21,439 nt of DNA, taken from a virus. Under the pieces are notes generated by a model. That model was given only the letters and a program-made list of their open reading frames with translations. It ran no database searches and had not been told where the DNA came from. Where the stretch lies: positions 1 to 21,439 of the IMG/VR virus record IMGVR_UViG_3300030687_000056, one strand, 5' to 3'. Position numbers and translations under genes: made by a program. This document shows, piece by piece, positions 6,449 through 21,439 of this stretch (within the stretch, counting starts at the first letter, position 1; each line of letters begins with the position of its first letter).

Positions 6449-8340
6449 CGTGTCACCTTCAATGAGTCCAACAGTTTGCGGGCGTGTGCCACATAGTATT
6501 CGTAATCAATCCAGTCAGGTACAGCATCCGGCAGCGTCATCAAAGGCCATGCTCCGGTGCTGTCTGCAACCTGATTGCCATTCGTTTTGTAATGGATAGC
6601 GCCGGTATAGTCACGCCGGTATGCCCATCGGACAACCTTGCCAAGCACTTCATATGAACCCGGTTGTTGCTGGTCAAATGGTTCATGCTCGGTACCTTCA
6701 TAGAGCCGTCTGACGGCACCCCCTTTAACCGTGCGCGATGACACGAACTTGCGGATATCGCGGCACCTGTAGATCGTTTCATCGAGCGGCGTCCCGTGTT
6801 GGACGTAGGCAATGACCGCATCCATGCAGATTTCCCGATGTGGCGCTTTCGATGATGAGGGACCGCTACCGACTTCCGCATGTACGAAAATACCTTTGCG
6901 CTTGACTTCGTCTTTATCGGTGATAGCAAAATAGTTGTTGACGTCGCGAAAGTAAATGCCTTTGTACACCTGGTGTTCCAGTTCCATATCAACAATGCGT
7001 TCCCACTCTTTCATGATGACATTGCGGCGCGGTATGAGCGGTATCGGGCACCGTGTCACGATACCGTCTGTGTTGGCCGAAACGACACTGATGCCGCTCA
7101 GTTCGAGCGCTTCGATAAGCATCAGCAACATCAACTGTCCGCTGATCGTTACTTGCATCAATAATTCGGGCGCATAAGCCATACTGTACTTGCTACCAAG
7201 CTTGCCGAACCATCCGTTCAACACAATCTTTTTGCTGTTACCTTCTTTCTTGCGACCAGCACGCTTCGCGGCGATACGCTCGACAAACACTGTCTTGTAA
7301 ATAATCAACTGTCCTGGTCCGCACTGTTCCGGGTAAAGCTCCTGATTGATGATGACCTTTGGATAAAACGAACCGACATCGCTATCGCATATCTGATGCG
7401 TCGCGGTTGTTTCGTACCATACGCCGGACTCCTGAGAATGCAGACCGCCTGCGCCGAATTTATAAACGCTGGTGCCAATCTTGATGCGGATAGCCGCGAT
7501 GTCCTTATGCATCTTGATACCGGATTTGATCTTGTTGCCGTCGCTATCCAGTTCGTCGGTTTCTTCTTCCTTGTGCATCACCGTAAAAGGCGACGTCGCG
7601 ACAATGCGTAGCGCTTCCTGCAACTGTTCGGTCTGAAAGCTGATGTTTGACGGCACGCGATATGTGAACTGATAACCGCTAGGTCGTTGGATAGGTTCCG
7701 GCCGGAATCCAAGCTTGGCACGTGTGATTGCTTCGGATATCTGTGCATCTGACTTGCTGCGTACGTCAATGCCGATTTCATCGCTGATATGTTCGCGCAG
7801 CGGTATCCATTCTTTATCGCATGCGATTTCGTACAACCTTCGCGTAACTCGCAAATCATTGCCGCAATAGGTCGACAGACGAATGCGCTCGATGGGGCTG
7901 ATATCTTGTGACGGGTCAATCGGCAAATCCTGAATCGTCGGGCAATGCGCGATGCCAGCATAGGCTTTAAGACTGATGCGCACACCGGGCAACACTTCCA
8001 TGATGTCGATGTGATCCGTACATGTGGGCATCGATATGTTGTACACGCGGTAAAACTCCCATGGTTTCGTGCCACGCGTGATTATCATATCGTTAGCATC
8101 TTTGAGTGCCTGATTGTCTGCGCCGGTCAATGCGAGCGCCAGAATAGGGCAATCGTAATTACCGCTGTTAAAACCAACAATCGTGTGTCGAGCGAGCATT
8201 AGCAGTACGCCCACGCGGTTTAACGGCTGGCCCGGAAACATAGCGAACTCGACGTATTCATCGGTCGGTAACAGAAACTTGCAGAGGAAGTAGTTACGGT
8301 ACGTTTCCAGATCGAAAAAAGCGATGGGGCGTTTAGTCAT
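6445..8340 (-). CDS. Family B DNA polymerase with 3'-5' exonuclease
   Basis: A 631-aa replicative polymerase. Exonuclease motifs: ExoI FDLET (D10, E12), ExoII VGFNSGNYD (N58, D63), ExoIII Y158-x3-D162. Polymerase motifs: A is DVGSFYP (D321), B is K371-IVL-N375-GW-F378-G379 (Tyr replaced by Phe), C is SANTDGI (residues 421-427). In motif C the usual DTD reads N-T-D, so only D425 of the pair of Asp is kept. A later NYFAITDKDEVKRKGIF block matches the post-C region of family B enzymes. At 631 aa it is short for family B. There is no clear terminal-protein-priming insert. ATG 8340 has a GGA site. It follows the SSB gene after a hairpin and is coupled to the next small gene. Confidence 0.92.
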   Translation of the reverse strand: MTKRPIAFFDLETYRNYFLCKFLLPTDEYVEFAMFPGQPLNRVGVLLMLARHTIVGFNSGNYDCPILALALTGADNQALKDANDMIITRGTKPWEFYRVYNISMPTCTDHIDIMEVLPGVRISLKAYAGIAHCPTIQDLPIDPSQDISPIERIRLSTYCGNDLRVTRRLYEIACDKEWIPLREHISDEIGIDVRSKSDAQISEAITRAKLGFRPEPIQRPSGYQFTYRVPSNISFQTEQLQEALRIVATSPFTVMHKEEETDELDSDGNKIKSGIKMHKDIAAIRIKIGTSVYKFGAGGLHSQESGVWYETTATHQICDSDVGSFYPKVIINQELYPEQCGPGQLIIYKTVFVERIAAKRAGRKKEGNSKKIVLNGWFGKLGSKYSMAYAPELLMQVTISGQLMLLMLIEALELSGISVVSANTDGIVTRCPIPLIPRRNVIMKEWERIVDMELEHQVYKGIYFRDVNNYFAITDKDEVKRKGIFVHAEVGSGPSSSKAPHREICMDAVIAYVQHGTPLDETIYRCRDIRKFVSSRTVKGGAVRRLYEGTEHEPFDQQQPGSYEVLGKVVRWAYRRDYTGAIHYKTNGNQVADSTGAWPLMTLPDAVPDWIDYEYYVAHARKLLDSLKVTR

Positions 8341-18599: not shown

Positions 18600-21227
18600 A
18601 TGCACGACTATGCAGCATTAAGGGCCGCGCTTGACGGCCCGTTCAAGCCCCTGACGCAGTACCGGCAGTTCATGTTGTGGCAATTGCAGGCTGACCCATC
18701 TGGCGGCAAGCCCCGCAAGATGCCGTATAGCATCGCAGGCTATCAGGGCAGCAGCACAGACCCGACAAGCTGGTGCGACGCAGAGACTGCGCTGGCATCG
18801 GCGCGCACAAGCGGAATGGGCGTAGCGTTCGTTGTAACCGACGCCGACCCGTTCGTATTCATCGACGTTGATGGATGCGTGACTGATGGTGCGTGGGATG
18901 CCGATGCGCTCGATGCGTTCAGCCGGTTCCCCGGTGCGGCATTTGAGGCATCACAGTCAGGTACCGGTATGCATCTGTTTGTGGCTGGCACAACGCCGCA
19001 CGGATTCACCGGCCGCAAGCGTGGGAAGTTCGAATGCTACCGTACCGGCCGCTTCATTGCGCTCACTGGTCGCGGTGCCGTTGGCAACGTGTACGACTTT
19101 GGCGCGACGCTCAACCAGTTCATTACGGACAAATTCCCCATAACCCCCGGTGCTGGCGCGATGCCGCTCACATGGACAACAGCACCCATACCTGAATGGA
19201 ACGGACCCGCCGATGATGAAGAACTGTTACGTCAGTTTTTGTCCGCACCGGCACCGCGTAGTGCAAGCGAAGCGTTTGCCCATCTTTCTCCCGAAGCGCC
19301 TGCCATTAGCAGTAATGCGATTGCTTCAAATGCCGACCTGTTCAATGCAAACGTTGCCGTTCTATCTCAGGCTTATCCTGCCAACAACGATACCTTCGAC
19401 CACAGTAACGCCGCGTTCGCGCTTGCTACACGGTTTGCTTACTGGACCGGCAAGGATTGCGAACGGATAGAACGGCTGATGTCACGCGCGGCGTTCCGGC
19501 GCGGCAAGGCGTATGAGCAGCATGATGCGCAACGCACTTACATGCAATGGGATATCGAGCGTGCATGTGCAATGACGACGAAAGTCATGTTCCAGCGCGC
19601 GACGTCATTGAACGCCGACGTTGTTGCTGATGCTGCTGCCGCATATGACGAATACTATGACCGCATCAGTGCAGCCGGTGATGTGCATGCGGTACGTGCG
19701 GTTGCAAGTGAGGCAGCGCTTGATCAGCGCATCGACCCAACGTTGCGTGAATTGCTGGCCGGTCATGTACAGACGACGCTTGCCAACCATGGGCACCGGC
19801 TCAAGATCGATGAGTGCCGCAAGATGGTGGCGATGCGTAGCGCACGGCCGAACGCCGATCTACGCGAGTTGACGCGACAGACCAACATCGCACTGAACCT
19901 GCCTGAAGAAACCATTCTGCTTGCGCCAGTGATGAGCATCGGTCAGATGATTGAGCAGTTCGTATTTATCAGCGACGGCTCACAGGTCGGCAACGTGTAT
20001 GACCGTTACATGAACTTCGCACTTGCCGACTTCCGTAATACCATGGCAGCGTCCAACAGCCTGACCGCGGATGGTCGCACCATCGAGCACACGCGGGAAT
20101 GGTTGCGGCACCCAACGCGCAAGATGGTGCAGACGCGCACCTTTCATGCTGGCGGCAACATCATCACTGCCGACCCGAATGGACGCAGCGCGTTGAACAT
20201 GTGGAGACCTGTCGAACGTGGCGCATATAGCGTCGACATCGGGCCGTTCATTGAACAGGTGCAATACCTGTTTGGCGATGCAACTGAACGCTTCCTTGAC
20301 TGGCTGGCGCACATCGAGCAACAACCCGGCGTGTTGCCGCATTTTGGATGGTTGCATATCGCCGACCACTACGGCACCGGCCGTAATTGGGTTGCATCGG
20401 TCATCAGTCGTCTTTGGCGCGGGTACGTTGCGCCTAGCGTCGATATGGATGCACTCATCAACGGTGGATTCAATGGGGCGCTGGCAGGGCGTGTGATTGC
20501 CATCGTTGACGAAATCCGTGCTGGTGCGCGTGAAGACGCGTACATGATGGAAGGCAAGATTCGCAACATGCTCACGGAGGAAACACGCTATATCAAACCC
20601 AAGTACGGGCGTGAGTATGTCGAACACAATGCGTGCCGCTGGTTGCTGTACTCCAATCACAAGAATGCCGTGCCAATGGACGATGCAGACAGACGATGGG
20701 ATGTGGTTCACCTGTCTGCTGCGCCGCGTGCAGAACACATCTATGTCTATCTGTATGGTCTGCTTGACCAGCCCGCATTCATTGATTCGCTTGGCGCGTG
20801 GTTGCGGACTAGAGACTTGTCGCGGTTCAATCCCGGTGCGCGACCGCCCGTAACTGAAGCCAAGCGTCGCGCTATTGCTGCTTCGAAGTCGGAGTTCCAG
20901 AAGCTTGCCAGCATGATCGCTTCCCATTGGCCTTGCGATTTCATCACCGTATCTGACCTGTTGAGCGTCATGAATGATGGCGATGTTTCTGGCGTCAAGC
21001 GTTTGTCATCTTCCATGCGGCATGCGCTTGATGATGCTGGTATGCATCAGGTCGAATTGCCAGTGTATGACGAAAACGGCAACAAGCAGCGCGTATGGAT
21101 CGTTCGTAATGTTGTTCAATGGTTGTTGCCGGGGGTCATATGCAAAGAAAACACCGCAAAAGCGTTTGCAACGTATCGACCATACTCGAAAGGGTTCGGC
21201 TATCAGACGTTGCAGGCGTTGTTGTAA
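18600..21227 (+). CDS. PrimPol-SF3 helicase fusion (primase-polymerase / DUF5906)
   Basis: An 875-aa bifunctional replication protein. N-terminal archaeo-eukaryotic primase (PrimPol) domain: FIDVDG (D89, D91), SQSGTGMH (H125), then E145-CYRTGRFIALTG. A helical middle region (about 230-470) leads to a DUF5906/SF3 helicase domain with YGTGRNW (592-597) as the P-loop, IAIVDEI with D637-E638 as Walker B, and LLYSNHKN (N686) as motif C. The P-loop Lys is replaced by Arg595. A winged-helix-like C-terminus follows (about 770-875). It would prime and unwind phage DNA for the family B polymerase. Only a weak ribosome site (GCCGGG) is upstream. A 315-aa antisense frame over it is only a shadow. Confidence 0.9.
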   Translation: MHDYAALRAALDGPFKPLTQYRQFMLWQLQADPSGGKPRKMPYSIAGYQGSSTDPTSWCDAETALASARTSGMGVAFVVTDADPFVFIDVDGCVTDGAWDADALDAFSRFPGAAFEASQSGTGMHLFVAGTTPHGFTGRKRGKFECYRTGRFIALTGRGAVGNVYDFGATLNQFITDKFPITPGAGAMPLTWTTAPIPEWNGPADDEELLRQFLSAPAPRSASEAFAHLSPEAPAISSNAIASNADLFNANVAVLSQAYPANNDTFDHSNAAFALATRFAYWTGKDCERIERLMSRAAFRRGKAYEQHDAQRTYMQWDIERACAMTTKVMFQRATSLNADVVADAAAAYDEYYDRISAAGDVHAVRAVASEAALDQRIDPTLRELLAGHVQTTLANHGHRLKIDECRKMVAMRSARPNADLRELTRQTNIALNLPEETILLAPVMSIGQMIEQFVFISDGSQVGNVYDRYMNFALADFRNTMAASNSLTADGRTIEHTREWLRHPTRKMVQTRTFHAGGNIITADPNGRSALNMWRPVERGAYSVDIGPFIEQVQYLFGDATERFLDWLAHIEQQPGVLPHFGWLHIADHYGTGRNWVASVISRLWRGYVAPSVDMDALINGGFNGALAGRVIAIVDEIRAGAREDAYMMEGKIRNMLTEETRYIKPKYGREYVEHNACRWLLYSNHKNAVPMDDADRRWDVVHLSAAPRAEHIYVYLYGLLDQPAFIDSLGAWLRTRDLSRFNPGARPPVTEAKRRAIAASKSEFQKLASMIASHWPCDFITVSDLLSVMNDGDVSGVKRLSSSMRHALDDAGMHQVELPVYDENGNKQRVWIVRNVVQWLLPGVICKENTAKAFATYRPYSKGFGYQTLQALL

Positions 21228-21235
21228 ATGATGCG

Positions 21236-21371
21236 TCAGAACACAGAACACACCAGAACAGTCTGTGTAAAAAGAGCTAGTCAAAAAGTGGTATTAAAGT
21301 GGTATTAGAGGTATATTAGGTATGGATATAGACTTTAGGCCAAACCTGTTCTGGAATGTTCTGTGTTCTGA
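21236..21371. repeat. 26-bp inverted repeat flanking an AT-rich intergenic region
   Basis: The left arm (21236-21261) begins TCAGAACACAGAACA and ends CCAGAACAG. The right arm (21346-21371) is its reverse complement at 24 of 26 positions, the two mismatches being the central dinucleotide. The arms are 84 bp apart. Each arm contains three AGAACA hexamers (AGAACA left, TGTTCT right), so the region has six identical hexamers pointing inwards as two groups. It occupies most of the gap between the PrimPol gene and terS. Candidate functions are replication origin, terminase (cos/pac) recognition site, or operator. Confidence 0.9.
21287..21318 (+). repeat. Short direct repeats (iteron-like) inside the inverted repeat
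   Basis: AGTGGTATTA occurs at 21287-21296 and 21298-21307 (11-base period), followed by a degenerate AGGTATATTA at 21309-21318 with the same period. The surrounding 84 bp are clearly more A+T-rich than the genes around. The 11-base period puts the copies on one face of the helix, as in protein-binding iterons. Confidence 0.7.
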
Positions 21372-21386
21372 GAATGCTTATCAACT

Positions 21387-21439
21387 ATGAAATTGACACC
21401 AAAACAGGATGCATTCGTGTTGGCATATCTCGAAACGGG
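21387..21439 (+). CDS. Terminase small subunit, start only (3' partial)
   Basis: The last 53 bases read MKLTPKQDAFVLAYLETG, the beginning of the terminase small subunit family (Terminase_2), which starts with an LTPKQ-x-FV-x-Y-L-x-T/N-G helix followed by the HTH. The rest lies outside the window. The ribosome site is weak (GAGAA about 12 bases upstream). Its position next to the inverted-repeat region makes that region a candidate for terminase recognition. Confidence 0.8.
   Translation, partial: MKLTPKQDAFVLAYLET

Follow-up and report, generated by a model that had tools for sequence, protein, structure and literature searches.

Organization of the locus

The stretch of DNA considered here (the window) is the whole of the IMG/VR virus record IMGVR_UViG_3300030687_000056, a linear fragment of 21,439 bp. 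Near its right-hand end, between the gene for a PrimPol-helicase and the beginning of the small terminase subunit gene (terS), lies a large inverted repeat whose arms each consist of three short repeated units (iterons) and which encloses an AT-rich centre. We consider it probable, at roughly 0.8, that this ordered repeat is the replication origin of the phage and that it resembles the origins of the phage-inducible chromosomal islands (PICIs), here in the genome of a tailed phage. The features of the locus, with the evidence for each in brackets, are as follows.

18600..21227, + strand: PrimPol-helicase gene, 875 residues, presumed initiator (profile matches, Pfam, PHROG)
20868..21224, + strand: C-terminal winged-helix-like domain of the PrimPol (residues 757-875), presumed reader of the iterons (AlphaFold model, weak structural matches, fast divergence)
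21236..21261, + strand: left arm of the inverted repeat (repeat search, shuffle scan)
21237..21243, + strand: iteron L1, CAGAACA (hexamer count, arm alignment)
21244..21250, + strand: iteron L2, CAGAACA (hexamer count, arm alignment)
21254..21260, + strand: iteron L3, CAGAACA (hexamer count, arm alignment)
21262..21345, no strand: AT-rich centre, presumed melting region (33% G+C, minimum of the window; partly conserved among six genomes)
21285..21306, + strand: two exact 11-bp repeats, AAAGTGGTATT, with tandem GTGG, proposed priming signals (GTGG invariant in six genomes; motif preference from an excerpt of PMC8718748)
21307..21317, + strand: third, degenerate copy of the 11-bp repeat, 7/11 (repeat comparison)
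21346..21371, - strand: right arm of the inverted repeat (repeat search, shuffle scan)
21347..21353, - strand: iteron R3, CAGAACA (hexamer count, arm alignment)
21357..21363, - strand: iteron R2, CAGAACA (hexamer count, arm alignment)
21364..21370, - strand: iteron R1, CAGAACA (hexamer count, arm alignment)
21387..21439, + strand: start of terS, clipped by the window end; a neighbour and not part of the origin (open reading frame; whole gene in the near-identical contig L007)

The two arms are complementary at 24 of 26 positions and lie 84 bp apart, and both mismatches are in the spacer that separates the second unit from the third. Six of the 11 copies of AGAACA that occur on both strands of the window are found in the inverted repeat, three in each arm. 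The 84-bp centre has a G+C content of 33%, as against 54% for the window, of which it is the most AT-rich stretch; only 15 of 21,356 segments of that length are as AT-rich, and the ten whose starts were listed (21247-21269) all overlap the site. In a 272-base segment, clipped by the window end, the inverted repeat scores 20, a value reached by none of 200 dinucleotide shuffles (mean 7.3). Among 678 overlapping control segments taken from elsewhere in 15 loci six scored at least 14, representing three distinct repeats, the best with a score of 26. A preliminary description made from the letters alone had noted the inverted repeat with its six hexamers and AT-rich centre, direct repeats with an 11-base period, and a location between the PrimPol-helicase gene and terS; all of these observations are borne out by the counts given here, by the end of the PrimPol-helicase gene at 21227 and by the start of terS at 21387. 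The left arm starts 8 bp past the primase stop codon, and 9-58 bp past it in the nine closest scored relatives, so that in the window the site is immediately 3' of the presumed initiator gene, as in PICI origins and those of the Staphylococcus aureus pathogenicity islands (SaPIs). No match to Rfam was found over 20900-21439 at E values up to 1, a DNA search with the site against 50,697 phage records gave only two matches at chance level (E about 4), and a pattern search of genome contigs gave 57 matches, none of them to a relative.

The site in close relatives

A scan with the PrimPol recovered 12 loci, of which five are near-identical to the window, four are divergent (L008, 83% identical; L009, 61%; L010, 60%; L012, 60%) and three are distant. 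One further locus, L141, came from a scan with the core pattern and lies on the same contig as L148, and an exact pattern scan was carried out with CAGAACACAGAACA, for which L011 was examined among the matches listed. The comparisons below refer to six genomes (the window, L008, L009, L010, L012 and L148) that make up one clade and are therefore not independent of each other. In five relatives terS is found on contigs of 44.9-48.3 kb, and the contigs behind L008, L009 and L012 have identical first and last stretches of 127 nt, as in circular assemblies.

The site lies between the primase gene and terS in all six genomes, and the search for the same layout in relatives that had been proposed in the preliminary description thus finds the repeat retained in six of six, the window included. 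The layout and the core are kept while the iteron changes: CAGAACA is used in the window, L009 and L148, CAGGACA in L010 and xTCTCA in L008, and L012 has CAGAACA with a different third unit. Each arm has three units, at offsets of 0, 7 and 17 (1, 7 and 17 in L008), and the third is often degenerate. Within the centre, 19 of the 24 bases of the core AAAAGTGGTnnTAnAGTGGTnnTA are invariant, and all six cores have two GTGG motifs 11 bp, or about one helical turn, apart. In five long contigs, searched for exact copies of the units, this site is the one place where such copies lie less than about two helical turns, or within 20 bp, apart.

A mobile miniature element with terminal inverted repeats would also be short, AT-rich and flanked by inverted repeats, as the site is. 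Clustering of the units at one place per contig speaks against such an element, and the variable arms and constant core motif of the relatives are the opposite of what miniature elements display; this explanation is already contradicted and we give it practically no weight.

Distribution among more distant primases

The primases of L149 to L152 (group B) are only 34-35% identical to that of the window, and arms are again found 3' of the primase gene. Here there are three units per arm with a 9-bp period, GGGTTAC in L149 and CGCCCA in L150 and L152, which are unrelated to the iteron of the window; in L151 the units are degenerate, yet the arms match over 22 bp. L151, the sole group-B genome with degenerate origin iterons, also carries, about 0.7 kb before the primase gene, another inverted repeat (L151:3204-3326), whose 26-bp arms match perfectly and are separated by 71 bp. 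At L149:3400-3525 the arms end, past the iterons, in an extra complementary pair of 6 bp (GCTCTT/AAGAGC) next to the core.

Inverted iteron sets 3' of the primase gene were also found in three cultured phages, namely the Stenotrophomonas phage Silvanus (TGTAACC), the Sphingomonas phage Birtae (TTCTAAT) and the Bacillus phage rho14 (AGTAACA), and L161, L174, L177 and the Vibrio phage Rostov M3 (L200) have repeats in both orientations at this position. Some of these arrays are denser than three units per arm, with nine copies of AAAGTGT in L161 and seven of GTTACCA in L177, both strands taken together, in the 370 bp or so that follow the primase gene. In Rostov M3 an 840-bp gap between the primase end at 6463 and terS at 7304 holds TGTCACA/TGTGACA in both orientations, with an AT-rich stretch among the copies.

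Two scans were given 55 loci, of which 51 were scored (L164, L169, L171 and L172 have no primase stop codon in the locus); L163 and L166 share the compared sequence and members of the same clade are likewise not independent. The scan for inverted repeats found 12 of the 51 loci, and the scan for a 7-mer repeated on both strands 13 of the 51, with values matched by none of 200 shuffles; the second scan covered 901 bases for Rostov M3, 272 for the window and 500 for the others. No such site was found at many scored loci, including those of BPP-1, 9NA, PEi21, Milano, Chi and SBP, and the layout therefore recurs among these primases but is not general.

Association with the primase gene rather than with terminase genes

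The preliminary description had offered two readings of the repeat, as a replication origin or as the recognition site of the terminase (pac or cos), where TerS would bind the iterons and cutting would start. Comparison supports the first of these well, whereas the second is not supported. In the window terS begins only 15 bp past the right arm, terS follows the site in all six close genomes, and the repeats of Rostov M3 likewise fall in the gap between primase gene and terS. In Silvanus, however, the site follows the primase gene at a position near 41 kb, with terS and terL at the start of the record; in Birtae it follows the primase gene at a position near 34 kb, with the large terminase gene at the start of the record; and in L150 it follows the primase gene, with a terS-like open reading frame about 3 kb downstream (PHROG terminase small subunit, E 4e-11; Pfam below cut-off). 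It is thus adjacency to the primase gene, and not to the terminase genes, that is shared by these phages. Nor does the identity of the 80 N-terminal residues of TerS (the copy for the window being taken from the near-identical L007) follow the type of arm: it is 0.74 between the window and L148 and 0.64 between the window and L009, both with the same iteron, as against 0.71 to L008 and 0.70 to L010, which have different ones, and 0.80 between L008 and L148, whose iterons differ. Moreover, in three of the five long contigs the two ends share 127 nt, as circular assemblies do, and lie away from the site. We therefore regard a terminase site as unlikely. The same 80 residues are only 0.61 identical between L010 and L009, although the primase bodies of these two are 91% identical, and 0.93 identical between L009 and L012, which suggests exchange or fast change of the N-terminal domain of TerS in the L009/L010/L012 group.

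The position just before terS might also be expected of an operator or promoter region for terS and the late genes with paired sites for a repressor or activator, and operators commonly carry inverted sets of binding sites. A simple consensus scan of 21000-21439 found no sigma-70-like promoter, and the site goes with the primase gene also where the next gene encodes endolysin (Silvanus) or a hypothetical protein (Birtae, rho14). The layout is, furthermore, that of a PICI origin, and regulation of terS seems to us an improbable function for it.

Repeated units and stem pairing

The arms could alternatively matter as a stem-loop, either as a cruciform or in a folded strand, with the repeats being incidental. 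The single strand of the window site, with its 26-bp arms and 84-nt loop just 3' of a gene for a PrimPol-helicase with a winged-helix-like domain, folds far better than its shuffles (z -5.6), and the arms of the relatives stay largely complementary while their sequence changes. A stem-loop has been proposed as the functional element for plasmid pRN1, where the excerpted source states that stem integrity is required (PMC4234260). Arm-to-arm mismatches in nine genomes were counted with units chosen by eye from the repetition within each arm; these genomes are not independent, and the count excludes Birtae, L151, in which the third unit is degenerate, and Silvanus and rho14, in which the unit spacing is irregular. 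Mismatches were found at 11 of 179 unit positions and at 16 of 35 spacer positions (Fisher p 3.5e-8). Complementarity is thus mostly kept in the units and often lost in the spacers, so that the stem pairing itself is not what is maintained, and the units are directly repeated within each arm, which pairing does not need. Because the mismatches concentrate in the spacers, which a need for pairing would have kept as well, the conserved elements seem to be sites for a protein rather than a hairpin, and we think it somewhat less likely still than a terminase site that the stem-loop is what functions here.

The presumed initiator and its C-terminal domain

A profile of ten relatives of the PrimPol-helicase matched structures of the NrS-1 PrimPol (6k9a, E 1.5e-45), the NrS-1 helicase part (6k9e, E 1e-15) and, in its primase part, the 797-residue DNA primase 7ola (E 2e-25), which we take to be the SaPI5 protein. 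The protein also has the Pfam domains NrS1-1_pol-like_HBD and DUF5906 and belongs to the PHROG category of DNA primases. The AlphaFold model of the full-length protein is poor (predicted local distance difference test, pLDDT, 49.9), and for this reason only the match of its N-terminal part to the NrS-1 fold and a separate model of the C-terminus were used. The last 119 residues modelled alone gave a pLDDT of 76.5 and a predicted template modelling score of 0.70, and many of the structural matches listed for this model are winged-helix proteins, all of them weak (best Z 4.8). Foldseek found no match to the model at E <= 0.001, and a profile of the C-terminus gave a single match to PDB sequences, at a meaningless E of 0.95.

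In close pairs the C-terminus is the fastest-diverging part of the primase: identities for the body and the C-terminus are 0.86 and 0.61 between the window and L008, 0.91 and 0.75 between L009 and L010, and 0.96 and 0.72 between L009 and L012. The pair L149 and L150, in which the iterons differ, has 0.80 and 0.49, and the pair L150 and L152, both with CGCCCA, has 0.81 and 0.75. Synonymous difference is high in both parts of the gene, with values for the C-terminus that resemble those for the body or exceed them somewhat. On this basis covariation between the iterons and the C-terminal domain is suggestive but not proven, since the C-terminus of the window is about equally far from those of all five close relatives, as detailed below.

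Comparison with known origins

The published systems are compared here on the basis of excerpts of the papers cited. The initiators of PICIs and SaPIs have helicase and primase parts, which are fused in SaPI5 (PMC6092414, PMC7581432); the C-terminal domain of SaPI Rep recognises the origin, and binding as two hexamers has been suggested (PMC7581432, PMC6092414). The helicase and primase parts of the initiator are common to these systems and the window, whereas the C-terminal reader of PICIs has a presumed counterpart only, and the self-loading helicase of PICIs, with or fused to a primase, is matched here by the homology of primase and helicase parts alone. Unlike PICIs, which are satellites that rely on a helper phage for their virion, the window comes from a tailed phage whose baseplate, lysozyme and terminase genes are its own and whose relatives have contigs of the lengths given above. 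Its other genes include those for baseplate wedge proteins, endolysin, DNA polymerase, exonuclease, a single-strand annealing protein and a helicase, and the 53 bases of terS within it are completed in L007, where the whole gene has matches to Pfam Terminase_2 (E 7.5e-19) and the PHROG terminase small subunit. Particular to these phages, as compared to PICIs, are the three iterons per arm, the 7/10-bp spacing of the window and the 9-bp period of L149, L150 and L152, and the core with tandem GTGG.

Plasmid pRN1 resembles the window in that a single protein combines PrimPol, helicase and winged helix and that its gene is directly followed, on the 3' side, by a large stem-loop of which the structure is kept and the sequence is not. 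It differs in having no reported iterons, where the arms of the window are built of repeated units whose pairing is not fully kept. For pRN1 and for the proposed origin of phage BIP-1, both with a stem-loop 3' of the PrimPol gene, the excerpted source reports no iteron structure and describes the binding motifs as not yet identified (PMC4234260). BPP-1, which is related to BIP-1, has no iterons and only a 9-bp repeat 3' of the primase gene.

The PrimPol of phage NrS-1 has primase and helicase parts homologous to those of the window, and GTGG, the tandem motif of the window core, is with GTGA among its most efficient primase motifs, GTG being the corresponding motif for ORF904 of pRN1 (PMC8718748). 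In contrast to the window, no arm or iteron system is described for NrS-1 in the excerpts drawn on (PMC8718748, PMC7102993). The 8-nt NrS-1 sequence TTTGGTTA was absent from the 170 bp past the primase gene in six genomes, although TGGTTA is present in several. Phage P4 has a second element, crr, elsewhere in its genome; a second cluster of exact units was not seen in the five long contigs, within the scope stated above. In P4 the winged-helix domain of a primase-helicase with a primase of the Toprim type binds repeats of the origin (PMC4234260), to which the winged-helix-like domain and the repeats of the window would correspond, binding in the window being presumed.

A proposed origin of bidirectional replication

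The site, as two inverted sets of iterons around an AT-rich core directly 3' of the PrimPol-helicase gene, is best read as an origin of the type found in PICI satellites. The observations that argue for this include the anatomy of the site, its presence 3' of related primases in several groups of phages, the joint change of most of the iterons at a given site, the bias of arm mismatches towards the spacers and, in close pairs, the rapid divergence of the C-terminus of the primase. Among the origins of S. thermophilus phages that serve for phage-encoded resistance, some follow the primase gene. The iterons are presumably bound by the C-terminal winged-helix-like domain of the PrimPol. In the process that we envisage, this domain would bind the three CAGAACA iterons of each arm, and two helicase rings would be set on either side of the AT-rich core, in opposite orientation because the two sets of iterons face each other. 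The core would then melt, the loaded rings would let replication proceed bidirectionally, and synthesis by the N-terminal PrimPol domain would begin within the opened core, in this clade probably at the two GTGG motifs.

Several observations weigh against the proposed origin or limit its reach. The support comes from genome comparison. The cumulative GC skew of five contigs does not clearly turn at the site and is uninformative. A majority of the 51 scored primase loci show no such site; L008, L012 and L151 are unremarkable in the 7-mer scan (p 0.21, 0.19 and 0.64), and L012 reaches only p 0.02 in the scan for inverted repeats. The tandem GTGG is absent from six other cores (L149, L150, L152, Silvanus, Birtae and rho14), and priming at GTGG is therefore proposed for the clade of the window only. 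L009 and L012 have the first two iterons of the left arm in common and C-termini that are only 72% identical, so that drift of the domain occurs also where the main iteron stays the same. The C-terminus of the window, besides its identity of 0.61 to that of L008, has identities of 0.59-0.63 to those of L009, L010, L012 and L148. Finally, two fragments have an end near the site, at 68 bp past the right arm for the window and at 159 bp past it for L005, as would suit a terminase cut, although the near-identical contigs L004, L006, L007 and L011 run through the end point of the window.

Implications for the replication of PrimPol-helicase phages

To our knowledge, the majority of PrimPol-helicase phages have origins that are still unmapped. 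The kind of origin proposed here is already known from PICI satellites, and what is added is its use in tailed phages, the suggested covariation and the core motif. A layout known from bacterial satellite islands is also present, in the genomes compared, in several groups of ordinary tailed phages, and no description of it in a tailed phage was found in the open-licence literature, which leaves out most subscription papers.

More speculatively, and with the odds rather against it, the origin might carry two codes: a fast-changing address, made up of the iterons and the C-terminal reader that drift together, and a slow start signal, the tandem GTGG at which the PrimPol would prime. The address and its reader would then constitute an identity code for replication, which might drift because, without such change, related phages and satellites that meet in one cell would set off or poison one another's origins, and the stem-loops of the pRN1 type could be degenerate inverted sets of iterons. 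The natural pairs of differing specificity that exist among these phages are available for working out the code of recognition.
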